From Clostridia bacterium (lineage in GTDB: Bacteria > Bacillota > Clostridia > Christensenellales > Pumilibacteraceae), in assembly GCA_017623455.1 (NCBI GenBank), contig JAGAPA010000006.1, forward strand, positions 1 through 60,542: DNA of 60,542 nt. Direction: 5' to 3'. A program made the translations under genes and the position numbers. This document shows, one piece after another, positions 7,933 to 41,514 of the stretch; within the stretch, counting starts at the first letter, position 1, and each line of letters opens with the position of its first letter. The notes beneath the pieces are model-generated. The model did not search any database. It was not told where the DNA came from and saw nothing but the letters and a program-made list of their open reading frames with translations.

Positions 7933-10680
7933 TTATGATTCCAAATCCACCCACAAAGCGGGGCGCACGGCATAGTAATCATGGTCGACACCGCGACCAT
8001 CATAGTCGACATCGCCGTCATTATAGACAATTGCGGCATCATACTGATAAAAACCGGGAGATCTGAGCCACCACCAGCAATTTCCGTTATCACTGTTTAT
8101 CCATGCTATGTTCTTATTTGCATACGCTGTTGGTTTACACTGCCTTGCAGTCTTACTACTAAAATATTTATTCGCTTCGAATATACTTAGTAAGAATACT
8201 TCATCCTGCGTTGTATTACCCGGATTTGCACTAAAACTTGAATTATTATCCGCACTTACTGTTACTGTCGGAATAAATGATTTTTCTTCATTACTAAACG
8301 CACTGTTTAGAAAGTTATTATTAAGCCATTTCCTTAAACTACAAGTCTCCCACGTTACGTCTTTCTTTACCATATTATACTGTTTTCTATCTAATGCATA
8401 TTTGCTTATAAGTAACGCTTTGTTTCCCTCTCTTGCAAGCACTTGCCACTCTATATCTTCTTTTGTTTTATCATTGCTTTGATAATATTTTCCGAATTTT
8501 ACAGTTGCTCCAACCTTTGCTTTCGATAATTCTTTTCGTACTAAATCTTTCTTATACTCAGCTGAACTCTCGTACATCTGTTTGCCCGTCTTTGTTTTAT
8601 ACAGCTCTGCTACTATCTCGTCTTTGGTTAACAACGTTTTATTCTTTTCTATCTCCTCTTTTGCTTCTTCTATTTGCTTATCATATTTTTCAATGTCTTT
8701 TTCTATAGAAGATATTGATACATGTCCCTTAAGCTCTTGTTTTAACGTTTCTTTCTTTGTTGCTTTTTCTTTTTCGCCCCGTTCAAGGGCTTTTATTTCG
8801 CTATCTATTTCCTTTTTGCGTTTCATTGCAAAAAAGCCAAGTGTTGCTCTTTCTGCGCGTAGTGCATTTATTTTGCTTTCCAACTCTTTTATTTCTTTAT
8901 CTACATCTTCTATCTGTAATTGTACGGCAGGAAGTTTTTCTTTTATCTTGTCAAGCTCTTTTCTCTTGCTTTCAAGCTTGTTTAAGTTGCTTTGAGCTTC
9001 TTTTCTTATTTCCTCTATAGCCTCTTTGCTTTTTGCGGTTGCTAAGGATTTTACAAGCTCTCCGCACATCTTGTTTTTTTGCTTAGTTGCCTCTATTTTC
9101 GCTTTTATTTCCGCTATTCGCTTATTACAGTATTCTATTTGCGCTTTGCTGTCTTTCCAGTTTATTATGCTTTTGTATATATCTATTGCACTTTCAAAAT
9201 TGATTATATTGCTACCTTTTGCTTCTCTCTTTGCTTTTTCATATATTGCATTTTTGCGGATTTCTTCGGCTTTATCGTAACATTCGTTAGCTAAAGCTTG
9301 CGCGTCCTTATAGCCTTTTATTGTTCCAAACGTCGTACCAGCTTCCTTGTATTCACTCTCCGTTTTTGCGCTTAGCATCAAGCTTGTCGCTTTTTCGTAT
9401 ATGCCCTGTTTTCTTGCGTTCTCGTTACGCTCTTTTATGTAATCGATATACCCTTTAATTTCCTGCTTTAACGTTTCATTTGCAAACATCATAAGCATTT
9501 GATAATGCTTGCTATTGTCAAACGGGTTTGCACAGTCTTTGAGTTGTTCCTTGTTTTTTAGTTTTAGCTCAGATAAGAGCTTACCAAGATATGCTTCTGC
9601 ACATTCGGGATCAGTATCCAAAACCTTTTCCGCATACTCGTCAGCTTTATCCCACTCGCTGTTGATAAGAAAGATATTTATTCTCTTAAGAAGTGGTTGT
9701 ATTGTAGCATTATTGCCCGTTTGTGTCGGGTTTTGTTCAGTACGTATAGGAGAAACTGCGACAGGCTCTGCTTTTTTTGTCTCCACGTATCCGCCAAATT
9801 TTTTGTTTATCTGAAGCAATAAATTCTCATAAAAGTCGAGGTCGGTCATATCAGCCACCTGAAAGCGTGAAAGCTCTTCGGGGAGCTCGTACGGACCCAT
9901 TTGCGCTATACATGGGAGTATGGTTTTTGTAACGTCACTTTGCGCAAACTCCAAAAATCTGCTCCATTCGTTTCTTACCCACGGTGCATTCGTGTGCTCT
10001 ACGCTTGTGGTAACGTGGAGCATTACTTTTGCGGACTTTAATGCTGAGTAAATAACGGGTTCGTATTCAGAACCAAGCTTGTTTTTTAGCGTTATACGCG
10101 AAAAGAACACCTTGTAGCCGTATTCGGTAAGGTAGGTGTAAATCTTGGTTGCGTGCTGAGCGTCAACCGTTCTCTTTCCTCCGTCAAGTTCGGTCTCTTT
10201 ATAGCAGATAAAGATGTCGTAGGGCTCTTCCTTGTCAGCTTTTACAAGAATTTCCTTTTGGATGCGATCTATCTCTTTTGCCTCGGTTTCGTAAATAGCT
10301 TTTTCTTCCGCTGTAGCTCTGCTCATTATGAGCTTATAATCTTTGTTATCAAAAATACTTTCCCTTATCGTTCTGTGGCAAGTGGGAAGATTTTTCTCCG
10401 TGAGAATGTCCTCTACATACTCAATTCCGTACTCGCATAGTATTTTACACCAATATGCTTCGTTCTCCTCGGGATACTGTTCAATTATGCTTTCGTACTG
10501 CTTTTTTGCAATATCGAAACGCGAAGCCATACGGTATTCGTTGGCTTTTGCAAAAAGCTCTAATTTTTTAGGATCATCGGCTGTGGGCAGGGTTTGCTCC
10601 ATTCCGCAAAAATCGCAAACGGCAATCTTTTGTCCGTCCACGTTTAACTCTGTTCCGCAATTTTTACAGTAAAAACTCAT
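7933..10680 (-). CDS. zinc-ribbon/TIR/coiled-coil protein with C-terminal DUF6273 domain (TIR1)
   Basis: Protein of 915 residues. A zinc ribbon lies at residues 5-25 (C5, C8, C22, C25), then a helical TPR-like segment. The TIR domain spans about 153-290 (YDIFICYKE); E207 in SEYEPVIYSAL is at the position of the NADase glutamate. TPR-like repeats and a long Lys/Glu coiled coil follow (about 560-720). The C-terminal DUF6273 domain (about 722-915) has FGKYYQ, WWWLRSPG and YAVRPALW. TIR domains commonly cleave NAD+ in immunity or signalling; whether this one does is inferred. ATG 10680 has AAAGGAACG upstream; a longer frame reaches TTG 10740 but runs through a recombination site. The promoter appears inverted (10711-10877). 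The last 40 codons look hypervariable against the paralogue at 39643. Confidence 0.85.
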   Translation of the reverse strand: MSFYCKNCGTELNVDGQKIAVCDFCGMEQTLPTADDPKKLELFAKANEYRMASRFDIAKKQYESIIEQYPEENEAYWCKILCEYGIEYVEDILTEKNLPTCHRTIRESIFDNKDYKLIMSRATAEEKAIYETEAKEIDRIQKEILVKADKEEPYDIFICYKETELDGGKRTVDAQHATKIYTYLTEYGYKVFFSRITLKNKLGSEYEPVIYSALKSAKVMLHVTTSVEHTNAPWVRNEWSRFLEFAQSDVTKTILPCIAQMGPYELPEELSRFQVADMTDLDFYENLLLQINKKFGGYVETKKAEPVAVSPIRTEQNPTQTGNNATIQPLLKRINIFLINSEWDKADEYAEKVLDTDPECAEAYLGKLLSELKLKNKEQLKDCANPFDNSKHYQMLMMFANETLKQEIKGYIDYIKERNENARKQGIYEKATSLMLSAKTESEYKEAGTTFGTIKGYKDAQALANECYDKAEEIRKNAIYEKAKREAKGSNIINFESAIDIYKSIINWKDSKAQIEYCNKRIAEIKAKIEATKQKNKMCGELVKSLATAKSKEAIEEIRKEAQSNLNKLESKRKELDKIKEKLPAVQLQIEDVDKEIKELESKINALRAERATLGFFAMKRKKEIDSEIKALERGEKEKATKKETLKQELKGHVSISSIEKDIEKYDKQIEEAKEEIEKNKTLLTKDEIVAELYKTKTGKQMYESSAEYKKDLVRKELSKAKVGATVKFGKYYQSNDKTKEDIEWQVLAREGNKALLISKYALDRKQYNMVKKDVTWETCSLRKWLNNNFLNSAFSNEEKSFIPTVTVSADNNSSFSANPGNTTQDEVFLLSIFEANKYFSSKTARQCKPTAYANKNIAWINSDNGNCWWWLRSPGFYQYDAAIVYNDGDVDYDGRGVDHDYYAVRPALWVDLES
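7975..8049 (-). other. candidate DGR-type variable region in TIR1
   Basis: These are codons 878-902 of TIR1. Compared with the paralogue at 39685-39759, 13 of 25 codons change the amino acid, and nearly all are NNY in both genes (for example TAT/AAT, GAT/TAT, CGC/GAT, CAT/CGT, GAT/TGT). Framework codons for Gly, Ala-Ala, Val and Asp-Gly are unchanged. This is what adenine-directed mutagenesis of AAY codons leaves. A few silent third-base differences show that the two are not fresh copies of one template. Confidence 0.5.
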
Positions 10681-10710
10681 TGGTTTTCGTTCCTTTTGTG
10701 TAAATTTTCG

Positions 10711-10877
10711 CGTTCGCCTATTAAGATAATCCACGAACAAAAATAGAGAATTTTATATAAAAAACATTAGGATCTAATTAAAAATTATTGCTTATTTATG
10801 TATATTATTGACAAAAAATGCATTATGGTGTAAAATTATGGTATAAAATGTTCGTGGATTATCTTATTCCACGAATT
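10711..10877. promoter_or_regulatory. putative invertible promoter upstream of TIR1
   Basis: Two 29-bp sites in opposite orientation (10711-10739 read on minus, 10849-10877 read on plus) share the first 18 bases TGTTCGTGGATTATCTTA exactly and enclose 109 bp. The enclosed DNA carries a plus-strand promoter (10808-10836) pointing away from TIR1. Inverting the segment would aim it at TIR1 with a leader of about 65 bases. As sequenced, TIR1 has no convincing promoter, only weak AT-rich candidates. Confidence 0.72.
10808..10836 (+). promoter_or_regulatory. promoter inside the first invertible segment (OFF orientation)
   Basis: TTGACA (10808-10813) and TAAAAT (10831-10836) are 17 bp apart. Downstream on the plus strand are only the right recombination site and a terminator at 10886-10930, with no gene. 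Confidence 0.75.
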
Positions 10878-10885
10878 TCTTAATT

Positions 10886-10930
10886 AAAAAATGCGCTATA
10901 AAGCTTTTTATTGCCTTATAACGCATTTTT
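10886..10930. terminator. bidirectional terminator after nagA
   Basis: AAAAATGCG and CGCATTTTT are the outer arms of a long stem with runs of A/T on both sides. It ends the nagA operon on the minus strand and would also stop plus-strand transcripts leaving the invertible promoter. Confidence 0.8.
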
Positions 10931-10936
10931 ATTTTG

Positions 10937-12040
10937 TTATTTATTTAATATAAGAACGTCGGTCATTTTCCAGTTTTCGTCCAAAAGCAAGAACTCTGCG
11001 TCGTAGCCTTTTTTGATTTTGCCTTTCTTTATGCCCAGCATTTCACAAGGTGTGGTGCTTGCCATTTTGTAGGCTTCTTCCGGCTTTATGCCAAACTCAA
11101 TAGCTTTTTGAACGCATCCGTAAAGGGACGTGGTTGCGCCTGCCAAAGTATCCGTACCCGTAAGCGTTGCTCTGCCGTTTTTTACGGTAACGTTAAGTCC
11201 ACCGCTACTATACTCGCCGTCTGCTAAAAGCGCGGGGCGGATTGCATCGCTGATTAATATCATGCGCTTAGACGAAAACAGCTTGTACGTAAGACGAATT
11301 ACGGACGGATGGATATGCATTCCGTCGCAAATAATCTGTACGTATGCGCCACAATCGTACGCAGCGCCAAGAATAGAGGGCTGTCTATGATGAAGAGATG
11401 GCATACCGTTAAACAAATGCGTTACACATTTTGCACCTGCCTTAAAGCCTGCAACCGCCTCGTCGTACGTTGCTTCGCTATGACCTACCACAACCAAAGC
11501 CTTACTGTTTTTGGTGTACTCTACCGCGCCGTCAACCTCGGGAGCAAGTGTAATAAGCTTGATATTTTCCATATCGTCAAAATCGCTTACGTTGGGACTT
11601 ACGATATTGTTAGGGTCTTGCGCGCCCTTGTATTTGTGACAAATGTACGGACCTTCGCTGTGATAACCCACGATATTTGCCCCTTCCGTTTGTGGAATGG
11701 AAGCAAAAGCCTTTCTTATATCGTTTACCGGAATAGTACAGCCTGTTGGATACCAAGAAGTAGTACCTTGTTCTGCCCAATACTTACTCATTTCCTTTAG
11801 CGCCTGCTCACCGTCCGTAGATTCCATGCCCATGCAACCGTGGCAATGCACGTCGACAAGACCGGGCACAATAATTTTACCCTGTCCGTCAATAATCTCG
11901 TCAAAACGTTCCTTAGGCATGATTTCACTATTGTAAACCGCGGAAATTTTTCCGTTTTTTACCGCTATATTGCACGGTTTTCCCCTATACGTTACGTTAA
12001 TAATGAGTACGCTGTTCTCTTTTTTTAGTGTTTTAAGCAT
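10937..12040 (-). CDS. nagA: N-acetylglucosamine-6-phosphate deacetylase
   Basis: Amidohydrolase-superfamily enzyme that removes acetate from GlcNAc-6-P, feeding amino sugars into glycolysis or wall synthesis. The metal-site HCH is at residues 65-67, the HSEGPY glutamate at 129, histidines at 187 (GHSEAT) and 208 (HLFNGM), and the catalytic Asp at 265 (SDAI). The length of 367 residues is normal. ATG 12040 is chosen because GGAGG lies eight bases before it; upstream in-frame codons overlap the previous gene. It is cotranscribed with the HAD phosphatase. Cytoplasmic hexosaminidase (42207) and surface esterases elsewhere in the window fit amino-sugar salvage. Confidence 0.93.
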   Translation of the reverse strand: MLKTLKKENSVLIINVTYRGKPCNIAVKNGKISAVYNSEIMPKERFDEIIDGQGKIIVPGLVDVHCHGCMGMESTDGEQALKEMSKYWAEQGTTSWYPTGCTIPVNDIRKAFASIPQTEGANIVGYHSEGPYICHKYKGAQDPNNIVSPNVSDFDDMENIKLITLAPEVDGAVEYTKNSKALVVVGHSEATYDEAVAGFKAGAKCVTHLFNGMPSLHHRQPSILGAAYDCGAYVQIICDGMHIHPSVIRLTYKLFSSKRMILISDAIRPALLADGEYSSGGLNVTVKNGRATLTGTDTLAGATTSLYGCVQKAIEFGIKPEEAYKMASTTPCEMLGIKKGKIKKGYDAEFLLLDENWKMTDVLILNK

Positions 12041-12053
12041 GCTGATGCCTCCG

Positions 12054-12758
12054 TTATAAAATACTCTTAATCTCACTCCAAGCCGACACGGTAAAATCCG
12101 CGCTGTCAGGCTTTATGCCCGTATTATACTTATCGTAATAACACGTTTTAATCCCTGCGTTTTTAGCTCCGCCTATATCCGACGACAAGCTGTCACCTAT
12201 CATTATCACTTCGCTGTTCTCTATCTCTTTTTCTTCGCGCTCTTTCAAAAATTTATTCACGGTATCTAACGCAAGCTCGAAAAACTCACGCTTCGGTTTT
12301 TGCACACCCATTTCTTCCGAGATAAAGTCAAACGCGGTAAATTTGTCTATTCCGCTAATAGAAAGCCTGTTTTTTTGTTGAAGCATTGGCCCGTTCGTAG
12401 CCGTGCAGACCAAATATTTACCAGCCAAATATTCAAGCCCCTCTATTGCACCGTCTATAAGTATTGCGTTGTTAAAAAGCGTGCCCTTGAAAAATTTTTC
12501 AAATTCCACTCCGTCGCCATCTATGCCTAATTTTTCAAATACGGCGTTCCATCTTCCACTCAATATCTGCTCGTACGAAACTTCGCCCTTTTCGTAAGCA
12601 CGCCAAAACCCATGATTGATAGTGCAGAACTCGTCGTACATCCAATTCTCGTACGTCTTAAAGCCGAACTTGTCAAAGCCGGTTCTCATTGCGTACTTAA
12701 CGTATTCGTCAAAATCTAAAAGCGTATTGTCAACGTCTACCAAAACAAGCTTTATCAC
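12054..12758 (-). CDS. HAD-family hydrolase, YjjG-like
   Basis: Haloacid-dehalogenase phosphatase of 234 residues. Motif I is DVDNTLLDF (nucleophile Asp near residue 8), motif II is the TNG in CTATNG, the motif III Lys is in QKPKREFF, and motif IV is GDSLSSDIGGA. The helical cap between motifs I and II places it with the YjjG/pyrimidine 5'-nucleotidase group; the substrate is not certain. The start codon is GTG with AAAGGAGAG in front. It is the first gene of an operon with nagA. Confidence 0.85.
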   Translation of the reverse strand: MIKLVLVDVDNTLLDFDEYVKYAMRTGFDKFGFKTYENWMYDEFCTINHGFWRAYEKGEVSYEQILSGRWNAVFEKLGIDGDGVEFEKFFKGTLFNNAILIDGAIEGLEYLAGKYLVCTATNGPMLQQKNRLSISGIDKFTAFDFISEEMGVQKPKREFFELALDTVNKFLKEREEKEIENSEVIMIGDSLSSDIGGAKNAGIKTCYYDKYNTGIKPDSADFTVSAWSEIKSIL

Positions 12759-19910: not shown

Positions 19911-22900
19911 TTAGTCGCCTACCTTCAAAACGTTTTCAAGAATGCTGTTACCTACAAGTTTACCGATTTCGATATGGTCGCTGTAGTTCCAGTGCCAGCT
20001 ATCAGTTCCGACAGCGGTATTGCTTCCGTTTACAAGCTTGTTAATATCGTACTGTCCGGATGCAATTACGTAGGTGTTCGCTACGTTGTCGGGGATAGTG
20101 TTCTGCATTGCAATAAACGCATTGTTGGTATTTACAGTTCCACTTACCGCAGAGCCCGAAGTTTTGGATATCTCACCAATAATGATGGGCATATTGGACA
20201 AATCCTGACCCAAAAGCTTAGTAAGGTCAGCTCTGATATCCGAAGCAAAATACTTGAATGCCTTTAAGTATTCGGTAGGATTGCCCTTATCCGACTCGCC
20301 CTGCATCCAGTACATACCCTTAACGTTAATGGTTTCATATCCCATTGCCTTAAGCTCGTTAACGTTCTTTTGTACCTGAGCTAACAATCTTCTGTACAAG
20401 CCACCCGTAAGGTTTCCGGGAGATTGCGGATTAATTGTCGCCTCGTAAGAGGGAGATACCCAGTTTCCGCTACCTGCGTTTTCACCGCCGATATTGTCAA
20501 GCAATGCTGTTCCGCCGTGAGCAAGTTTAATGAAGCCTGCTTCCTTTCCACTCTGAGGGTTGTAGTAAGAGGAAAGCACGTGAGCCATACCGATTTCGGG
20601 ACCAAAGAAATTACGGTTCGGGCCTGCACCCTGTCCTACACGAACAAGTGTCCAGGGCTGTTCGTTATGAACTGTAGTTCCGCCACGTTCAGCATCACCT
20701 GCATACAGAACATTCTGAAATCCGTAAACATAATTATCGTCAAGCGCAAGCATCTTTGCTTCATCGTAAGAAGTAAATCCCGACGCATTGGACTGTCCTG
20801 CAATGAGGTAAATGTCAATAGAACGACCTTGTACCTTGTTTGCGGCAATCATCTTGTCAAGCACGGTTGCGTTTGTGGTGTAGTTAAAGTTGGAAATTAC
20901 GTTGTTTACAACGCTTGAGCCTGTACCGAATCCGCTTACGGTATTGCCGTAAGTTTCAATCTTTCTGTACGCTACGAATACGTCGTTTACGTAGAAGTAA
21001 TAATCAGTTCCATTACGAAGAACGCCGAGTTTTACAGCGGTAGGATCGTAATTACCCTCGCCCAAAACGTCCTTATAATTTGCAATATGAACAGGAGTGG
21101 AAATTCCCCATCCTTCAGTTGTTCCAATTACTACGCTATCGCCTTTAATATAAGCAAAAGACTTGCTGTGTCCGCTTGCATCCAAAGCAGTATGGTTTAC
21201 GTGAGCAAACAAAAGTCCGGAGAAGTTACTATCGTACGCGCTGTATTTAGTCATCGTAGAGTCGAACGTTCCTTCAAGGTAGTACTTGCTACCTACTACC
21301 TGATGCTGGAATGCGAACGAGTGGGTAGTGGTTTTGATGTGGTTTCTATATCCGTCCACAAGTGACCAACCACCGCCTGCAGTTGCAGTTACGTCAGCGT
21401 TGTTAAACGACTTAAGCGTTGCTTCGCTTCCCGTATTTGCTACGTAAGTAATTGATCCGCCAAGATAGGAGTTGGAAATCTGTCCAACGATATCCAAGCC
21501 GTCCTCACCAACTTCAACTTCTTTGCTCCACAAGTTGTTGTTGTAAATAAAGTTTACTCTATACTTACCCGTTGCAATATCCAAAGTCTTGGTTGCCTCG
21601 TCAAAGGTAAACGTTTTAACACCGCTTCCCGACAAACTTACTACCTCTACGGTAATATCGGAAGGCTTAACTCCGCTCATATCGTAAAGGGCAAGCTTTT
21701 CATCTCCCACCATTACGTATGCCGATTCGTAAGAAAGGGTAAGAGTAGTAGGAGCAGCCTCTTCGTACTCTACAGAGATTGCAATCTTACCGCTTGCAGT
21801 AAGATCGAATGCGTACATTCCACCGCTTGCAACCTCTACGTCAAGAGCTTTTCCGTTTAACGTAACGGTCAAATTCTTAATATTCTTTCCCTCGGGAGTA
21901 GCAACCTTAACGTACTTGGTAGTACCGTCAAATCCAAGAAGATTTCCGCCGTTTCCTACTTCTTTAGTTCCGCTAAGAACGGTTACGTTAGCATCACAAG
22001 CCACGCTTGCTTCAATTCCGCCAAAGATTGCGTTGATAGCCTGTTCGTTGAGCGTGTACTTAACGTTAGACATAGTAACGGCAGTTCCTACGCCCTGATG
22101 TCCTCTGTATACACCAAGTCCGCTGATATTATCTCCGGGCAAGCTGTTGTATGCGTTATCAATAGCGGTATACTTACCTGTGTGGAATAAAACTCCGTTA
22201 ATATAAACCTTGTACTCGTCCTTATTTCTCAAAATTCCGAGCTTGTAATCTTTCTTGCCAGTTGCATTCGAAGTTCCGCCGTTACCATATCCGTGAGTCC
22301 AGTTAGTAATGGGATCTTTCTGATCGCTACCCTTCTGGTGACGAAGCAAGTACATAGTGTTGTAAGTATCACCAAACGAAATCTGAGGATAGTTGAAGTT
22401 TGCATCGGGAGCTGAAGTATTCATTACAAATCCAAGCCAAGGCGTGTTCGCTACGTAAGTTACGTTTCCTTCAATATAGTATACGTTACCAGTTACTCCG
22501 TTAACAAACGCCAGATAGTCGTTGCTGAGCGTTACGCTGTCGGCAGAGTTATACTTTACCGCAGTATCCTTACCACCGCTCGTTACTGTCTTGCCGTTGC
22601 AGTCCACAAACGATCCGCCAAGGTCGGTAATGGAAATATCATAAGCAAAGCTTGCATTTTCCTTTGTTACGGTAATCTTGGTTTCCTTTACGGTGTTAGC
22701 CTTAACACCTGCAAAAGTTGCTCTTACCGTATATGTGCCGGGCTTGAGGGCGATATCGAAGTTTCTATTTGCGGTTACAACCGTCTTTACTACGTTGCCA
22801 GCCTCGTCTAATACTTCTACCTTAATAGACTTTTGATACGTTGCGGTAAGATCTTGATAGTAAATCTTGTTGCCGTTTGCACCTAAGATATAATCAGTAT

Positions 22901-25900
22901 CGGTTGTTACCGTTGTTACTACCATGTCTTTTGCCACAACCTCATCGATTGCAGAAAGAAGAGCCTCGTCCATAGAATACATAAAGTTCGTAAACTTAGT
23001 ATAACCGTTAGACGTATTATTTGCCATAGAGCCAAGACCAAATCCGCACTTTTCGAACATTCCAAGCGAAATGGAAGCAATATACTCGTTGTTGATAAAG
23101 ATGTAGAAATCCGCTCCGTTTCTGTATACACCGAGTTTATAACCGTACTTATCGCCGTCGTAAGAAATCTTGCTCTTTACGTCCTTGATAGCATGGAAGT
23201 AATTATTGCTCCAACTTTTTTCGTATGCATATCCAAGCACACCTGCCTGATTTACACCGATAATAAGCTTGTTTCCTCCGTTTGAATTAAGGTCAGCGTT
23301 TTCAACGGCAGCCATAATACCTACGATGTTTGCGTTGGTCTTTCCACTAAACGCATCGAAATAAGAATCTGTTTCGATATAATATCTCGTTCCCTGAACT
23401 GCGTTCTGATAGGTAAAGTCATAGTAGCCAAGCCATACTTCATCAGCGCTCTTAACTTCCTTACTGCTGTGAACAAAACTGCTAAAACCACCGACAGATC
23501 CGTTAAGGTTTGATGTGGAAATATCCACTTCGATATTAGCATCCGCGCCGTTTACGGTAAACGTCTTGCTAAACGTTGCGCCGTTATAAATAGCCTTTAC
23601 GGTATAAGTTCCGTTTGTAAGAGCGATTGCGCTTCCGTCCATAGCAAGGAGTTTGCCCGAAGCGTTGTAAAGCTCGTAATCAACGTCGTCAGCAGAAACG
23701 TCAGCCGTCGCATAAGACTTTCCGCCAAACTCAATACTCTTTACGTTGTGAGTAAACTCAACGTTATACTCCTCAACGTCCTCTCCGATAATTGCCTTGA
23801 TGGCATCGGGGTTGGTGGTGTACTTAACGTTAGACATTCCAATAGACGTTCCTACGCCCTGATGTCCTCTATACACACCGAATCCGCTGATATTATTTGC
23901 AGGAAGAGTGTTGTAGTTCTTGTCTACCATTGCGTAAGTTCCGGTATGGAACAACGTGCCGTTGATATAAACCTTGTAGGTATCGTTTACACGTAAAATT
24001 CCGAGTTTGTAATCCTTTCCGCCTATCAAAGATGTGGGAGAACCTAAACCATATCCGTGCGTCCAGTTGGTGATAGGATCTTTCTGATCGCTACCCTTTT
24101 GATGACGGAGCAAATACAACTGTCCGTACGTTACACCAAAGGAGATCTGCGAAGCGTTACCGTTCGCATCGGGAGCGGTAGAGTTCATAACGAATCCAAT
24201 CCACGGAGGAGTGGACGTAAGATACTGAACAGTTCCTTCTATATAATATACGTTGCCCGTTACGCCGTTTACGTAAGAGAGGTGATCGCTCGTTGCGGTA
24301 ATGCTGTCAGCAGATGCGTGCGTTACGGTAGAGCCTTCCTTTACTACGGATTTAGCAAGCTCGCCCTTAGCATCGATAAACGATCCGCCAAGATCGGTTA
24401 CGCATACGCTGTAAGCAACGTCCGTCTTGTCCTCTGCAACGGTTACGGTCGTTTCTTTAACGTTGTTTGCCTTAACACCCATATAGGTTGCCTTAAACTT
24501 ATAAGTACCGGGCTTTAAGGTGATTTCGAAGTTTCTATCGGGTGCGTACATCGTTCTTACAAGCTTGTCGCTCTCGTCAAGAATTTCGAGTTTGATATTT
24601 TTAATCTGATTATCGGTAAGTTCGTCCTGAAGATAAATCTTCTCACCTTTTGCTCCAAGCACGTAATCGGATTCTGTGGTAACGTTTACCGCAATTTCAT
24701 CCTGAGCGGGATCTCCGTTGATAAGTCTTTGGATTACGTAAGGATTGGTAGAGAACTGAATGTCCTTAACGTCAACTGTCTCGGGAGAGAAGTTGCTTCC
24801 TCTGAAAATTCCAAATCCAGACTCGTTATCCGCGGGAAGAACAGTACTGCCGTCCTTAGTAGTGCTCTCAACCGTCATTTCGTAAACCTGAGTACCGTTT
24901 ACGTAGAAGATATATCTGTTATCAAGTCTGAGTGCCGCAATCTTGTAAGTATTACTGCTTCCAAGATGAGCAGTAATAGAGCCTACGCTCGTTCCACTTG
25001 ACCAGCTACCTGCAAGGTTTTTCTGAACAAAGAGCGTTGAATTGTCATAAACAGCCATTACGGTCTTTCTATAACTATTAGTGGGCGCGCCCTCGTTGGA
25101 GTTAAGAATAAATCCTGCCCAACCTTTTTGTCCTTTAGTAAGGGTTGCTTCGATATAGTACATACTTCCCGTTACGTTGTTAAGGTATGCGTACGTGTTG
25201 TTAGTAACGGTGATAGAGTTGTTGGCATTTACGGTATAGAACTGACCGAACGAATTAATTTGAGTTCCGTTGTCAAGAGTATACGAGCCTGCAATATCTA
25301 CGAGAGAAATGCCGTAAGCAATATCTTTAGTTCCATTTGCTACTACAACTTCGGTTTCTTTTGTTGCTACCTTTCCTGCCGAGCCCTTATAGCTTGCCTT
25401 GAACTTATAAGTACCGGGTTTTAAGGAAAGCGTGAAGTTGCTCTCGCCCGACACAACTTTCTTTACAAGATTGCTTTCAGCATCGTAAATCTCAATTGAG
25501 AGATTTTGCGCCATAGCGTTTGTAAATGTGTGGTTGTGATAGTACTGTTTATTGCCCTCGCTATCAAGCATATAATCAGAGTCAGTCGTAACGTTTACAA
25601 CAACCTCGTCCTTAGCTACGCTTTCTTGCAAATCGTTGAGAAGCTGTTCGTTGAACGAATATACGTAGTTTGTAAAGTGCGTCTTACCGTTAGCGTCGTT
25701 GTTGTTAATAGAGCCTACGCCGAACGAACATTTTCCGAACATACCGAGAGTAATAGTGCCTACATATTCATTAGCTACGAAGATTGAATAATCCGCTCCG
25801 TTTCTATATACGCCGAGCTTATAAATAAACTCTTCACCATTGTAAAAAATCTTATCCTGAACGTCAGCAATCTCGATGGGAGCGTGTCCCCAACCACCTT

Positions 25901-28316
25901 GATATGTATAAGCAAGTTTTCCTGCCTTAGTTACACCAATAATGAGTTTTCCTGCGCCACTTCCTTCCAATACTTCGTTACGCGACGCCGCCATAATACC
26001 TACAAGACCTGCGTAATTTGCACTCTTTGCTCCGTCAAAGCGAATATCACTTTCGATATAATATCTGTCACCGAACGTTTCGTTCTGATATGTAAAGTCG
26101 TAATGGCTCAAGCTTACCGCATCGGGTCCAACGTAAACCTTGTTGGGATTTACAAAACTCTTTCTTCCCTCGCTCGTTCCTCCAAGCTTGGTCTTAGTAA
26201 GTTCTACGTATACGTCCTTTTCACTATCTACGGTAAATGATTTTGTAAACTCATAGCCATTGTATTGAGCGATAATTTCGTACTCGCCGTATGCAAGATC
26301 CATAGAAGTGCTATTAATGGGGGTTTCGTTACCGTCCTTATCAACGATAACTGCCGACATAGAAGCCATATCCTCTTCGGTAAAGCTATACGCTGCATAA
26401 GTTTCTCCGCCAAAGGAAATATCCTTGCTCTTAACGCCCAAGCCGATAGCGTACTCTCTTGCGGACTCTGCAAATCTTGCCTCAATCACAACATCGCCGC
26501 TTACCTTATCCTTTGCAAAATCCCAAACGGTATCCGTTCCTTTGATATACCAGTTATCAAAGGTATAAACTGTGGAAACACTGCTTTCCTTTGTAGGATC
26601 TTCGGGCTTAACAAGGAGCGAACCGTATTCGATATCTTCGGTCACACCGTCAAGCGTTACGCTGTACTTTCTTACGCTTTCGTTAAACCTTGCCTCAATC
26701 TCCATATCCTTGCTTACGGTATCGTTTTCAAAATCCCACTTGCTATCCGTTCCTGCGATATACCAAGCGTCAAACGTATAAACCGTATCAACCGTACTTT
26801 CCTTTATAGGATCTTCGGGCTTTTCAAGCTTGTCGCCAAACTTGTAAGTTCCCTCTGCTCCGCCAATGGTTACAACGTAAACTCTCTCACCGGCAATAAA
26901 TCTTGCTTCGATTTCTACGTCACCTGTAACGGGAGCTTCAAAATCCCACTTGGTATCTGTTCCAACGATATACCAGCCGTCAAAGGTAAAGGACTGAGTA
27001 TCAGTGCTTTCTTTCTTGGGATCCTCAGGCTTTTCAAGAAGTGTGCCGTATGCAATATCTTCAGTCACTCCGTTAAAGGTTACTGAATACTTTCTCACCT
27101 CTTCCGTAAATCTTGCCTCGATTACCACTTCACCCGTAATAGGCTTTTCAAAATCCCAAACGGTATCGGTATCTGCAATGTACCAGTTATCGAAGGTATA
27201 AACCTTATCAACGGTGCTTTCCTTGGTAGGATCTTGGGGCTTTTCAAGAAGCGTGCCGTATGCAATATCCTCGGTCACACCGTCAAGCGTTACCGCGTAC
27301 TTTCTCACGCTCTCAGTAAATCTTGCTTCAATTTCAACTTCGCCACTTACCTTATCGGTTTCGAAATTCCAAACGGTATCCGTTCCTTTGATATACCAGT
27401 TATCAAAAGTATAAACGGTGTCGACAGTGCTCTCTTTAGTGGGATCTTCGGGCTTTTCAAGGAGCGAGCCATACGCAACCTGCTCGGTTTCCCCGTCAAG
27501 CGTTACGGCATACTTTCTTGCAGTTTCAATAAATCTTGCCTCGATTTCAACTTCGCCCTCAACCTTGTTTACAAGGAAGTTCCAAACGGTATCCGTACCC
27601 TTAATATACCAATTATCAAAGGTATAAACGGTAGATATCGTGGTTTCCTTGGTAGGATCTTCGGGCTTTTCAAGTTTGCTTGCGTACTCAACCTGCTTAG
27701 CTTCTCCGTTTACCGTTACGCTGTACTCTCTTACGCTTTCAATCCACTTAGCTTCCAAAACAACGGGGCCTGTTACGGGCGTATCGAAATCCCATTCGAT
27801 ATCGCTACCCTCTTTTACCCAGCAGTCAAACTCAAAGTTTGTGGAAACTGTGCTTTCCTTAGTGGGGTCTTCGGGCTTGGTAATCTTACCGCCGTGAGTA
27901 ACCTTTACGGGCGCATTATCTCCCACAACCACGTCGTACTGAGTGGAAAGAGGCGTTACGGTAATGGTAATGGTCTTACTTACCGAAGGAGCGGATTTTA
28001 CCATAAACGTAATATTTGCCGTTCCTTGTTTAAGACCGACAATCTTACCGTTTACCGCGTCGTAACGAATAATGCTCGTATCGTCGATAACGTACCTGAA
28101 CTCTTCTCCGTCCATTGTGGCAACGTCAAGACTTATTGTTTCGTTCTGTCCCACTTCAATCGTTGTAGAACCAATTACCGCCGTGATCTCATGCGTTACG
28201 GGTGGCGTTTCTCCACCACCTTCGGGATCGGTAGGCGTACACGCAATGGTAACACCTCCGATAGTTATGCACAATGCACCTGCGAGTCCTGCTGTTAGCA
28301 ACTTTTTCTTATCCAT
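19911..28316 (-). CDS. giant lipoprotein with InlB-type repeats and C-terminal sialate O-acetylesterase domain (LpA)
   Basis: The 2801-residue surface lipoprotein has a signal peptide ending in a lipobox-like TIAC, with C26 the lipidation site. A Big_2-like Ig domain (about 43-122) follows, then seven tandem Listeria-Bacteroides (InlB B/Flg_new) repeats of 70-71 residues (127-621). A long series of modules (about 622-2500) pairs a small beta domain with a jelly-roll domain carrying YYIE, LGVYRNG and SGFGVYRG motifs, probably carbohydrate-binding. The C-terminal SASA/SGNH-type esterase (about 2511-2801) has GQSN (Ser 2519), WMQGESD and WHWNYSDH. It would remove O-acetyl groups from sialic acid or other glycans. 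AGGAGG precedes ATG. The start lies 18 bp from a recombination site of a putative invertible promoter. Its paralogue is immediately upstream. Confidence 0.85.
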   Translation of the reverse strand: MDKKKLLTAGLAGALCITIGGVTIACTPTDPEGGGETPPVTHEITAVIGSTTIEVGQNETISLDVATMDGEEFRYVIDDTSIIRYDAVNGKIVGLKQGTANITFMVKSAPSVSKTITITVTPLSTQYDVVVGDNAPVKVTHGGKITKPEDPTKESTVSTNFEFDCWVKEGSDIEWDFDTPVTGPVVLEAKWIESVREYSVTVNGEAKQVEYASKLEKPEDPTKETTISTVYTFDNWYIKGTDTVWNFLVNKVEGEVEIEARFIETARKYAVTLDGETEQVAYGSLLEKPEDPTKESTVDTVYTFDNWYIKGTDTVWNFETDKVSGEVEIEARFTESVRKYAVTLDGVTEDIAYGTLLEKPQDPTKESTVDKVYTFDNWYIADTDTVWDFEKPITGEVVIEARFTEEVRKYSVTFNGVTEDIAYGTLLEKPEDPKKESTDTQSFTFDGWYIVGTDTKWDFEAPVTGDVEIEARFIAGERVYVVTIGGAEGTYKFGDKLEKPEDPIKESTVDTVYTFDAWYIAGTDSKWDFENDTVSKDMEIEARFNESVRKYSVTLDGVTEDIEYGSLLVKPEDPTKESSVSTVYTFDNWYIKGTDTVWDFAKDKVSGDVVIEARFAESAREYAIGLGVKSKDISFGGETYAAYSFTEEDMASMSAVIVDKDGNETPINSTSMDLAYGEYEIIAQYNGYEFTKSFTVDSEKDVYVELTKTKLGGTSEGRKSFVNPNKVYVGPDAVSLSHYDFTYQNETFGDRYYIESDIRFDGAKSANYAGLVGIMAASRNEVLEGSGAGKLIIGVTKAGKLAYTYQGGWGHAPIEIADVQDKIFYNGEEFIYKLGVYRNGADYSIFVANEYVGTITLGMFGKCSFGVGSINNNDANGKTHFTNYVYSFNEQLLNDLQESVAKDEVVVNVTTDSDYMLDSEGNKQYYHNHTFTNAMAQNLSIEIYDAESNLVKKVVSGESNFTLSLKPGTYKFKASYKGSAGKVATKETEVVVANGTKDIAYGISLVDIAGSYTLDNGTQINSFGQFYTVNANNSITVTNNTYAYLNNVTGSMYYIEATLTKGQKGWAGFILNSNEGAPTNSYRKTVMAVYDNSTLFVQKNLAGSWSSGTSVGSITAHLGSSNTYKIAALRLDNRYIFYVNGTQVYEMTVESTTKDGSTVLPADNESGFGIFRGSNFSPETVDVKDIQFSTNPYVIQRLINGDPAQDEIAVNVTTESDYVLGAKGEKIYLQDELTDNQIKNIKLEILDESDKLVRTMYAPDRNFEITLKPGTYKFKATYMGVKANNVKETTVTVAEDKTDVAYSVCVTDLGGSFIDAKGELAKSVVKEGSTVTHASADSITATSDHLSYVNGVTGNVYYIEGTVQYLTSTPPWIGFVMNSTAPDANGNASQISFGVTYGQLYLLRHQKGSDQKDPITNWTHGYGLGSPTSLIGGKDYKLGILRVNDTYKVYINGTLFHTGTYAMVDKNYNTLPANNISGFGVYRGHQGVGTSIGMSNVKYTTNPDAIKAIIGEDVEEYNVEFTHNVKSIEFGGKSYATADVSADDVDYELYNASGKLLAMDGSAIALTNGTYTVKAIYNGATFSKTFTVNGADANIEVDISTSNLNGSVGGFSSFVHSSKEVKSADEVWLGYYDFTYQNAVQGTRYYIETDSYFDAFSGKTNANIVGIMAAVENADLNSNGGNKLIIGVNQAGVLGYAYEKSWSNNYFHAIKDVKSKISYDGDKYGYKLGVYRNGADFYIFINNEYIASISLGMFEKCGFGLGSMANNTSNGYTKFTNFMYSMDEALLSAIDEVVAKDMVVTTVTTDTDYILGANGNKIYYQDLTATYQKSIKVEVLDEAGNVVKTVVTANRNFDIALKPGTYTVRATFAGVKANTVKETKITVTKENASFAYDISITDLGGSFVDCNGKTVTSGGKDTAVKYNSADSVTLSNDYLAFVNGVTGNVYYIEGNVTYVANTPWLGFVMNTSAPDANFNYPQISFGDTYNTMYLLRHQKGSDQKDPITNWTHGYGNGGTSNATGKKDYKLGILRNKDEYKVYINGVLFHTGKYTAIDNAYNSLPGDNISGLGVYRGHQGVGTAVTMSNVKYTLNEQAINAIFGGIEASVACDANVTVLSGTKEVGNGGNLLGFDGTTKYVKVATPEGKNIKNLTVTLNGKALDVEVASGGMYAFDLTASGKIAISVEYEEAAPTTLTLSYESAYVMVGDEKLALYDMSGVKPSDITVEVVSLSGSGVKTFTFDEATKTLDIATGKYRVNFIYNNNLWSKEVEVGEDGLDIVGQISNSYLGGSITYVANTGSEATLKSFNNADVTATAGGGWSLVDGYRNHIKTTTHSFAFQHQVVGSKYYLEGTFDSTMTKYSAYDSNFSGLLFAHVNHTALDASGHSKSFAYIKGDSVVIGTTEGWGISTPVHIANYKDVLGEGNYDPTAVKLGVLRNGTDYYFYVNDVFVAYRKIETYGNTVSGFGTGSSVVNNVISNFNYTTNATVLDKMIAANKVQGRSIDIYLIAGQSNASGFTSYDEAKMLALDDNYVYGFQNVLYAGDAERGGTTVHNEQPWTLVRVGQGAGPNRNFFGPEIGMAHVLSSYYNPQSGKEAGFIKLAHGGTALLDNIGGENAGSGNWVSPSYEATINPQSPGNLTGGLYRRLLAQVQKNVNELKAMGYETINVKGMYWMQGESDKGNPTEYLKAFKYFASDIRADLTKLLGQDLSNMPIIIGEISKTSGSAVSGTVNTNNAFIAMQNTIPDNVANTYVIASGQYDINKLVNGSNTAVGTDSWHWNYSDHIEIGKLVGNSILENVLKVGD
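26454..27938 (-). repeat. seven tandem 210-213-bp coding repeats in LpA
   Basis: Encodes residues 127-621 of LpA: seven units, each with a YxVT(L/V)xG start, LEKPEDPTKEST, YTFDNWYIKGTDTVW and a closing (V/M)xIEARF. Several neighbouring units are nearly identical in DNA. Long open frames on the opposite strand here are a by-product of the repeats and are not called as genes. Confidence 0.85.
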
Positions 28317-28334: not shown

Positions 28335-28542
28335 TGTTCATAAAATAGTATATTCAGCGAACAAATTTTAAGCGTAAATAAAAATAAAAGTGAAAATATT
28401 GTTGCAATGAAAGCTAATTAGTGCTATAATGTATCTATTATAGCTATAAATAGTGCTAAATAGGTGGAAATTTAGAGCGTTTAATGGTGTTTTTGCGAGG
28501 GAAAAAGAGTAAATGTTCACCTAATATACTATTCCACGAACA
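28335..28542. promoter_or_regulatory. putative invertible promoter upstream of LpA
   Basis: Two 29-bp sites in opposite orientation (28335-28363 on plus, 28514-28542 on minus) share the core AATAGTATATT and the ends TGTTC and GAACA. They enclose 150 bp with a plus-strand TTGCAA-17-TATAAT promoter (28402-28430) pointing away from LpA. Inversion would place it in front of LpA with a leader of about 125 bases. The end motifs match the pair in front of TIR1. Confidence 0.75.
28402..28430 (+). promoter_or_regulatory. promoter inside the second invertible segment (OFF orientation)
   Basis: TTGCAA (28402-28407) and TATAAT (28425-28430) are separated by exactly 17 bp. Its transcript leads only to the terminator at 28554-28602. 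If it read through, it would be antisense to the 3' end of the neighbouring lipoprotein gene. Confidence 0.8.
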
Positions 28543-39642: not shown

Positions 39643-41514
39643 TTATGATTCAAGATTTACCCACAAAACAGGACGCACGGCATAGATACAACGATCTACA
39701 TCATCACCAAAGTCGTTAACATCGCCATCAGGATAGACATATGCAGCATATTTTTGATTAAAACCGGGAAAGCGAAGCCACCACATACTATTCCCATCAT
39801 ACTTATTTACAAATGCTCCGTTTTTCTTTGCATAGGCTGTTGGCTTACACTCTCTTGCCGTATCACTACTAAAGTATTTGTTTGCTTCGGATATACTTAA
39901 TAGGAATATTTTATCCAACGTGCTATTTCCGGGATTTATGCTATAGCTTGGGTTCTTATCTGCACTTACCCATACTGTTGATATTATTGCTTTTTCTGCG
40001 TCCCTAAAAGTATTGTATAGAAAGTCGCTATTTAGCCACTTTCTTAAACTGCATATCTCCCATGTTGTGTCTTCATATTTAGAGTTATACGGCTTACAGT
40101 CTAATGCGTACTTACTTATAATCAACGCTTTATTTCCCTCTCTTGCAAGTACTTGCCACTCTATATCTTCTTTTGTTGCATCATTGCTTTGATAGTATTT
40201 ACCAAATTTGCAGATATCTCCTACTTTTAGAGCAACGGTAAGCTTTTGTGCCGCAGGCGCAGGGGTGGGAGCAGAAGTTGTTTGCGTAGTAATGGGTTCT
40301 TTAAGCGAGGACAGGCTTGCGGAAAGCTGTGGATCTCCAAAGCGGATTGATTTTTTGAAATTGGGATTTTGTGTAAATCCTTGTTTCTTTGCAAGCTCTT
40401 CTACTTTCGTTACCTTGTATTCGCAAAATGCTTTATAAAGATAAGCTTTTGCACACTTTGGATTGACGTCAAGTATGCGCTCAGCATACTCGTCAGCCTT
40501 TTTCCAATCTTTATCCTCTAAAAAGATTTCAATTCTTTCCAAAAAACTCTGTATTTGTTTATCTATGTCTATACTTTGTGTAACGTTTTGTTCTATACGT
40601 GTGCTTGTAACCGTGTTAACTCGTCCGAATTTGCTATCAATCTGTCGGGTAAGGCTTTCGTAAAAATCTATATCCGTTATGTCCATTACCTGTATTTTTG
40701 AAAGCTCTTCGGGCAGGTCGTACGGGTACACGTCCTTAAGACAGGGTAGTAATACCTTTGTATAGTCCTTGCGCATAAACTCTAAGAATCTGCTCCACTC
40801 GTTTCTTACCCATGGCTCACTTACGTAATCCTTGTTTGCGCACACGAACAGCATAACCTTTGCGGTATAAAGCGCGGAATATATAATAGGCTCGTATTCC
40901 TCGCCTGCTCTGCTTTTAAGCGTTACGGGAGAGAAAAACACCTTGTAACCAAGCCTTGTAAAATGCGTATATATCTTGTTTGCGTACTGAGAATCGGTAG
41001 TACGTCTTCCGTTTTCGTCGCTGTCCTTAAAGCAAATGAAAATATCGTAAGGCTGTTCCTTGTTCGCCTTCTCTTTTATCTCTTTTTGCAGTCTGTCTAT
41101 CTCTTTTGCTTCCGTTTCGTAAATTACTTTTTCTTCCGCGCTTGCTCTGTTCATTATGAGCCTGTAATCCGTATTATTGAAAATGCTTTCGCGAACGGTT
41201 CTGTGGCAAGTAGGAATCTTGCGCGCGGTTGCAAAGTCCTCAACGTACTCTATACCAAACTCACACAGTATTTTACCCCAGTATGCTTCATTCTCGTCGG
41301 GGTATTGTGTAATTATGCTTTCGTACAGTTTTTTGGCAATATCAAACCTACAAGCCCTGCGGTGACCGTTAGCCGTAATAAGCAACTCTAATTTTTTAGG
41401 GTCGTTGATTACAGGAACCGTTTGCTCCATTCCGCAAAGCTCGCAGATTACGGTTTTAGCTCCATATTTCAGCGAAAGCTCAGAACCACAGCTTTTACAA
41501 GTAAGTTTTTCCAT
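39643..41514 (-). CDS. zinc-ribbon/TIR protein with C-terminal DUF6273 domain (TIR2)
   Basis: The 623-residue paralogue of TIR1 has a zinc ribbon (C6, C9, C24, C27), a helical TPR-like segment, and a TIR domain from about 155 (YDIFICFKD) with the putative catalytic Glu in GEEYEPIIYSAL (about 209). A further TPR-like pair precedes a Thr/Pro/Ala-rich linker (TTQTTSAPTPAPAAQ). The DUF6273 domain (about 445-623) has FGKYYQ, WWLRFPG and YAVRPVLW. It lacks the long coiled coil of TIR1. About 60 bp at the start of the DUF6273 coding region are almost identical in both genes, showing recent duplication or gene conversion. A perfect-consensus promoter faces it directly, unlike TIR1. An NADase or signalling role is inferred. 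Confidence 0.85.
   Translation of the reverse strand: MEKLTCKSCGSELSLKYGAKTVICELCGMEQTVPVINDPKKLELLITANGHRRACRFDIAKKLYESIITQYPDENEAYWGKILCEFGIEYVEDFATARKIPTCHRTVRESIFNNTDYRLIMNRASAEEKVIYETEAKEIDRLQKEIKEKANKEQPYDIFICFKDSDENGRRTTDSQYANKIYTHFTRLGYKVFFSPVTLKSRAGEEYEPIIYSALYTAKVMLFVCANKDYVSEPWVRNEWSRFLEFMRKDYTKVLLPCLKDVYPYDLPEELSKIQVMDITDIDFYESLTRQIDSKFGRVNTVTSTRIEQNVTQSIDIDKQIQSFLERIEIFLEDKDWKKADEYAERILDVNPKCAKAYLYKAFCEYKVTKVEELAKKQGFTQNPNFKKSIRFGDPQLSASLSSLKEPITTQTTSAPTPAPAAQKLTVALKVGDICKFGKYYQSNDATKEDIEWQVLAREGNKALIISKYALDCKPYNSKYEDTTWEICSLRKWLNSDFLYNTFRDAEKAIISTVWVSADKNPSYSINPGNSTLDKIFLLSISEANKYFSSDTARECKPTAYAKKNGAFVNKYDGNSMWWLRFPGFNQKYAAYVYPDGDVNDFGDDVDRCIYAVRPVLWVNLES
39685..39759 (-). other. 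candidate DGR-type variable region in TIR2
   Basis: Codons 586-610. Amino-acid differences from TIR1 fall at codons that are NNY (one is AAA), while the frame of Gly, Ala-Ala, Val, Asp-Gly and the following YAVRP is kept. Several codons here are AAY or one step from it (AAT, AAC, GAT, TAT). Confidence 0.5.

Follow-up and report, generated by a model that had tools for sequence, protein, structure and literature searches.

Most known cases of promoter inversion concern surface structures, and in Bacteroides the serine recombinase Mpi is said to act as a single enzyme that globally switches the promoters of many surface genes. We know of no bacterial TIR anti-phage system, Thoeris or other, of which promoter inversion is a part. 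For Clostridioides difficile, the available excerpts of two papers describe a tyrosine recombinase, RecV, as needed for several, though not all, of seven invertible sites, with cwpV and the flagellar switch among those that depend on it (PMC5903667, PMC7446863). The available portion of a third paper assigns 32 of the 33 invertons of hCom2 inverton group 139 / invertase group 35 to Clostridia, and places nearly all group 139 invertons near a tyrosine-type recombinase gene (PMC11892184). A promoter flipped by a tyrosine recombinase is therefore nothing new in kind among Clostridia.

Here we analyse positions 10711-10877 of a 60,542-nucleotide stretch from a Clostridia bacterium (the window, by which we mean that whole stretch), in front of the TIR-domain gene TIR1. 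Like the RecV switches, the system comes from Clostridia and probably involves a tyrosine recombinase and several putatively invertible promoters; unlike those in the excerpted RecV accounts (PMC5903667, PMC7446863), it has an 11-7-11 site with a pair-specific spacer and a TIR target. Group 139 can be likened to the present sites by its description rather than by motif, and 'TIR' is absent from the main text of PMC11892184, while in the available part of PMC12118408 the TIR domain occurs in a reference title. The original prediction had known of no such switch reported for a TIR/DUF6273 protein, and this held across the open-licence PMC papers searched, where we found no TIR protein as the target of an inverton. 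The genome differs from the Mpi case in that it yielded no Resolvase-family (PF00239) protein of the kind a serine invertase would be (0 matches in the 77.6%-complete assembly). TIR1 is like bacterial TIR anti-phage proteins (Thoeris and others) in its TIR domain and unlike known TIR defence systems in that neither it nor its paralog TIR2 matched any PADLOC model at E 0.001.

A putative promoter switch upstream of TIR1

The features in and around the locus are as follows.

7933-10680, minus strand: TIR1, 915 aa, ATG at 10680, with TIR_2 and DUF6273 domain matches; predicted target of the switch
10711-10739, minus strand: gene-proximal site, TGTTCGTGGAT-TATCTTA-ATAGGCGAACG (read on the minus strand), arm-matrix score 27.6
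10740-10848, no strand: putative invertible segment, 109 bp between the sites
10808-10836, plus strand: sigma-70-like promoter TTGACA-17-TAAAAT, 11/12 consensus matches, pointing away from TIR1 (OFF)
10849-10877, plus strand: distal site, TGTTCGTGGAT-TATCTTA-TTCCACGAATT, arm-matrix score 25.4
10887-10930, no strand: hairpin with U-rich tail, probably a terminator that separates the switch from the convergent ORF 10937-12076

Re-examination of the sequence bore out two opposed 29-bp sites with 18 identical bases and 109 bp enclosed, exactly as had been claimed, and likewise the TTGACA-17-TAAAAT promoter inside the segment and its direction away from TIR1. The exact 18-bp inverted match (10722-10739 / 10849-10866) is the longest exact inverted repeat of the window in a complexity-filtered search with 60-350 bp between arms, and an inverted match of at least 18 bp arose in 1 of 30 dinucleotide-shuffled windows. 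Each site proved to be itself a dyad, with two 11-bp arms around a 7-bp spacer, and the 18 shared bases are exactly the inner arm plus the spacer; this dyad structure, a second switch in the window and the nine site pairs of the genome were absent from the original prediction, to which the nine pairs were not visible.

The best promoter match in the segment reaches 11/12 consensus positions one way versus 8/12 the other, so that it would face the gene in one orientation only, a point backed by the homologous segments that face paralog genes (below). Promoter-like motifs by themselves are at chance level in such A+T-rich DNA, with 2 found in 10600-11000 versus 2.3 expected. The terminator placed at 10886 stands in substance, as the hairpin at 10887-10930 (-15.3 kcal/mol, z -4.8, none of 200 shuffles as good), although a simple terminator scan near the switch missed this hairpin and returned none. 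There were no Rfam matches at gathering score in the window. Opposed sites thus enclose a short segment carrying a promoter, and on sequence evidence 10711-10877 is best read as a promoter inverton caught in its OFF orientation.

TIR1 itself has a zinc-ribbon-like N-terminus (by eye), a TPR-like region, TIR_2 and a C-terminal DUF6273 domain. Its residues N237-E238-W239 are invariant in 22 of 22 aligned TIR proteins, and we take the E238-type glutamate to be the NADase residue of TIR enzymes. TIR1 is presumably an immune-like NAD-consuming or signalling protein, whose cost would favour an OFF majority. DUF6273 is C-type-lectin-like according to the literature and, in the available parts of two papers, a target domain of DGRs in phages (PMC10743442, PMC11792537). 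We dropped a DGR reading for this domain since the sole RVT_1 match (on C14, in a genome of which 22% is missing) came with no template-like repeat of the TIR1 3' end in the stretches compared, the first 12 kb of the contig. That match is a 513-aa reverse transcriptase (L230:179-1720, G000:C14) with no template repeat detected, and it may be of a non-DGR, defence type.

Matched spacers in nine site pairs

A pattern search of the genome with at most 3 mismatches recovered nine complete site pairs with 108-150 bp between sites and an arm consensus of TGTTCRYBKAW. All nine are opposed; eight stand before a gene, and the remaining one is at the end of a contig. The spacer, the presumed crossover region, is identical within 9/9 pairs, with seven distinct spacers overall, whereas inner arms are identical in four of the nine and outer arms in one. 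Because the search pattern fixed TA at both spacer ends, only the middle three of the seven bases were free to differ. Random re-pairing of the sites reached 9/9 spacer identity once in 20,000 trials. Identical crossover regions within pairs, combined with seven spacers among them, are as tyrosine-recombinase strand exchange over a homologous overlap requires.

The strict site pattern has 18 matches in this genome, where the same pattern reversed as a control has 0; none of 73 other family genomes has more than 3. At the thresholds applied, two congeners yielded neither sites nor TIR genes. An arm weight matrix, trained on the 18 paired sites with those of TIR1 among them, splits sites (>=24.0) from all else (<12) in the 279 kb of genome scanned, and one base-shuffled copy of these 279 kb gave 0 hits >=12. 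Sites in the nine pairs score 24.0-33.6. Single sites occur on C47, C15, C78, C86 and C84, and at L079:3731 a site persists in front of what seems to be a decayed target gene, with a SipW-type start that breaks off within a few codons. Two contigs end at sites, C22 at the last base and C55 inside a site that the contig end truncates, which would fit assembly forks from mixed orientations and is only suggestive. Short repeats also stand at both ends of the window's contig (1-289 and 57972-60542), possibly as assembly break points: 1-108/182-289 at 99% identity and 60397-60450/60489-60542 at 100%.

The nine pairs, their targets and their promoter orientations in the assembly are listed by contig and site starts.

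C3:10711/10849: TIR1; OFF
C3:28335/28514: 2801-aa protein; OFF by a small margin (10 vs 9)
C16:2134/2272: SipW-type, passes TIGR04088; OFF by a small margin (10 vs 9)
C22:14909/15066: target probably beyond the contig end
C26:27852/28031: 1551-aa giant lipoprotein-like protein; orientation a tie by score
C51:21272/21409: SipW-type, passes TIGR04088; ON
C65:9517/9675: SipW-type, passes TIGR04088; OFF
C83:1669/1818 (C83a) and C83:5464/5612 (C83b): both SipW-type; both ON

Targets are thus five SipW-type proteins, two giant lipoprotein-like proteins, TIR1, and one (C22) that was not recovered; on C83, the C83b target passes TIGR04088 and that of C83a was assigned through the same N-terminus. The second pair lies in the window.

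19911-28316, minus strand: protein of 2801 aa, lipoprotein-like by eye, that has List_Bact repeats and a SASA esterase domain; predicted target of the second switch
28335-28363, plus strand: gene-proximal site, TGTTCATAAAA-TAGTATA-TTCAGCGAACA (pattern and arm matrix)
28364-28513, no strand: putative invertible segment, 150 bp
28402-28430, plus strand: promoter-like TTGCAA-17-TATAAT directed away from the gene of the 2801-aa protein (OFF), 10/12 vs 9/12 in the reverse direction
28514-28542, plus strand: distal site, TGTTCACCTAA-TATACTA-TTCCACGAACA (pattern and arm matrix)

By eye, the inner segments of most pairs are dissimilar, those of C3:28335 and C26 being alike, and C26 carries a TTGCAA-17-TATACT that is directed away from its gene, as is the C3:28335 promoter.

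TIR paralogs, the recombinase and its relatives

The genome holds 21 TIR matches, alike in their N-terminal half, versus 0-3 in each of the other 73 family genomes, an expansion spread over contigs C3, C47, C78, C15, C60, C26 and others. We examined 20 of the 21, one of them without upstream sequence; among the other 19 there is one intact pair, three loci have a single site, one (C43) has a degenerate relic judged by eye, and 14 have none. The nine paralogs whose domains were scanned all have TIR_2, five with DUF6273 (one weak and partial) and four with BspA-type LRR, such that TIR1, TIR2 and these nine share a constant TIR half and differ in their C-terminal halves. One paralog lies in the window.

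39643-41514, minus strand: TIR2, paralog of TIR1, TIR_2 plus DUF6273; no recombination site found upstream

BLAST of the switch against its own genome matched paralog C78 with the stretch holding promoter and distal site on the plus strand and the stretch holding leader and proximal site on the minus strand. The segment aligns to C78 with a score of 68 when facing the gene versus 31 as it stands, and to C15 with 50 versus 33, and none of 1000 shuffles reached 68 (C78) or 50 (C15); for C47 the values were 31 versus 30, no better than shuffles either way, and for C43 28 versus 27 (no shuffles run). Since the segment faces the gene at C78 and C15 and faces away at TIR1, both orientations relative to TIR genes occur in one genome, which at the level of sequence implies past inversion and supports the earlier claim that flipping would set the promoter in front of TIR1. 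By the arm matrix these ON paralogs have no recognisable distal site, and with a gene-proximal site only they look frozen. No ON ortholog of the TIR switch was found in sister genomes (two congeners; genus g37).

Two proteins in the genome match PF00589, one on C63 and the other P0001 on C94, a tyrosine recombinase by its Phage_integrase domain (E 1.4e-24). Residues R147, K189, H251, R254, H277 and Y287 of P0001 are invariant in 13 of 13 aligned proteins and are presumably its catalytic residues. By score P0001 is not XerC/XerD (64.9 / 51.4 bits against NCBIfam cut-offs of 335.15 / 329.6), and its best solved-structure matches are the Int proteins 6en0 and 6emy. One gene away is a SipW-like signal peptidase, whose 62.3 bits fall short of the model cut-off of 190; with five SipW-type targets this neighbour is suggestive. 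The C63 integrase is 32% identical to P0001; it is the tyrosine integrase of what by eye is an inovirus-like element (L081, G000:C63) with a Zot-like 709-aa protein and replication-like genes.

Matches to P0001 at E <=0.001 occur in 56 of 74 family genomes, a count that includes its own genome and distant integrases. At recombinase loci, exact inverted repeats were present in 15 of 30 versus 0.1 in shuffles, yet also at 2 of 16 TIR-locus controls, and the 15 include L105 and L109, which are off the site design, and L099, where the pair is not adjacent; on account of these controls and misfits we used a scan for same-design pairs instead. Among the best 80 loci listed (named genomes), a same-design pair lies within 500 bp of the P0001-family gene in 33, downstream of the recombinase gene in 32 of these, and 30 of these 32 are at most 52 bp past the end of the match. 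Controls gave 0 in five shuffles per flank and 0 of 123 segments 1.5-2.5 kb away. The scan took an identical spacer as a condition, so spacer identity is no result there, and the 80 loci overlap the family genomes, include near-identical species and have some flanks that end at contig ends, so they are not 80 independent cases. Motifs closely similar to the present sites occur at L178 and L086. The named relatives are mostly Clostridia MAGs, many of them from animal gut and some under Christensenellaceae or Candidatus Ornithoclostridium, and from these the source organism is presumably a gut bacterium.

At L178 (CANRHP010000003.1, a Clostridia MAG of the Lapin series) the recombinase gene is followed by a site, a segment with an outward promoter, the second site and a TIR gene, whose protein is 41% identical to TIR1 over 469 aa. 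G257 is the same locus, and G225 carries the same switch, its recombinase recovered as a C-terminal part with no intact open frame. In G092, from the same genus, the TIR N-terminus matches that of L178 at 95-96% identity, but the recombinase in front of it shares only 54% identity and the site arms differ. Since the N-terminus is kept while recombinase and arms differ, the switch module before TIR has been exchanged. In this genus (g37), three genomes have TIR behind recombinase-linked pairs of two different modules, all OFF as assembled, and a TIR gene (E 1e-40) is present in 4 of 25 genomes, three of them with a pair. Over all TIR homologs examined outside the source genome, no upstream pair was found at 25 in the family (score >=34), and one was found at 3 of 21 non-own TIR loci in the order (score >=32); with two genes common to both lists, 3 of 44 distinct TIR homologs have a pair and 41 do not. 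We therefore reject as a general rule that TIR genes of the TIR1 type are phase-variable, the three with a pair all being from one genus.

In 29 of the 33 cassettes among the best 80 loci listed, an ORF of at least 60 aa has its ATG within 250 nt of the distal site. Ten of these 29 targets, chosen by eye from those (not all) that did not look like lipoproteins, were scanned and comprised one TIR protein, two EcoRI-type methylases, one Band_7 protein, one aminotransferase, a weak below-cut-off MmeI-type methylase (Pfam), a type II methylase (PADLOC, L124) and three with no Pfam or PADLOC match; 12 of the remaining 19 begin like lipoproteins (by eye). DNA methyltransferase genes stand directly behind recombinase-linked pairs in other Clostridia at L124, L141, L152 (weak) and L157, where phase-variable methylation or restriction is possible. 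Small proteins behind switches in several genomes, at L121, L132, L133 and L138, share IYRV[AS]FIGHR near the N-terminus, those of L121, L133 and L138 having no Pfam or PADLOC match.

Weighing the explanations and what a switched TIR protein would mean

In the mechanism we propose, a trans-acting tyrosine recombinase, most likely P0001, would bind the 11-bp arms of the opposed 29-bp sites, and strand exchange inside the identical 7-bp spacer TATCTTA would invert the 109-bp segment. In the OFF state the promoter would fire away from TIR1 into the terminator hairpin, and after inversion transcription would cross the proximal site and then a 30-nt leader before entering TIR1. At least eight further loci would be under the control of this enzyme, mainly those of SipW-type proteins and including the two that encode giant lipoprotein-like proteins. 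Several TIR and SipW-type loci that retain a gene-proximal site only look frozen; at the TIR loci among them the promoter is directed at the gene. We give this reading, a promoter inverton flipped in trans with TIR1 OFF as assembled, a probability of about 0.88. Site design, pairing, spacer matching, the orientation in two paralogs and recombinase-site linkage in relatives are read off the sequence, and from them we infer that inversion is still going on at TIR1. The phase-variation layout originally predicted thus gains from the site family, the paralog orientation, the recombinase linkage and the TIR pairs in another genus.

The alternative with the greatest weight keeps the switch and changes the enzyme, to a recombinase missing from the assembly or to the C63 integrase. 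The assembly is 77.6% complete, a second Phage_integrase exists and no site pair was found adjoining P0001 itself; against this, the C63 enzyme sits by eye within an inovirus-like element and is quite distant from P0001, and P0001-family enzymes adjoin same-design sites in relatives, with similar motifs at L178 and L086. We regard another enzyme as unlikely, with odds that overlap those of the best explanation, and P0001 as most likely the inverting one. It is a good deal less probable that the locus was once an inverton and that it, or the enzyme, no longer inverts. Decay does occur in the family, as three TIR paralogs keep one site, C43 is degenerate by eye and single sites also stand at C86 and C84, but both TIR1 sites score 25-28, inside the range of the nine pairs, and their spacers match exactly; P0001 has an open frame and keeps the residues conserved in its family; and nine spacer-matched pairs imply recent or current exchange.

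Two further accounts do without a switch, and both strike us as very remote. Repeats that were copied from a small palindromic mobile element, or left as an integration scar, would suit a genome with many site-like dyads whose two congeners yielded none, but not nine opposed pairs 108-150 bp apart with matched spacers, eight before a gene, nor inner segments that are mostly unlike one another by eye (C3:28335 and C26 excepted). Equally, the outward promoter could be the functional state, giving a small or antisense RNA toward ORF 10937-12076 with the repeats merely insulating it, as the promoter does point that way in the assembly; here a strong hairpin starts 10 nt past the distal site, Rfam has no match at gathering score in the window, and two paralogs carry this segment turned toward their TIR gene.

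Taking the promoter inverton as the reading, we suggest tentatively, with the odds somewhat against it, that the TIR proteins form a phase-variable, receptor-like repertoire, at least one member of which is switched by a recombinase and others of which are frozen-ON descendants, serving as a clonal immune bet-hedge. In genus g37, TIR genes with 93-96% identical N-termini have two different recombinase-site modules in front of them, which might mean that having a switch before TIR is itself selected. If so, clonal cells would differ in immune state, hedging a costly and perhaps suicidal anti-phage immunity, and TIR immunity would come under a recombinase family with other cassettes that precede type II methyltransferases. 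The genome-wide recombinase-site code would then extend to a receptor-like TIR protein, and members of one clone could come to differ in phage immunity through this one family of switches. More broadly, matched 7-bp spacers allow candidate switches of this class to be recognised in uncultured gut Clostridia from one assembly each, with no need for reads.
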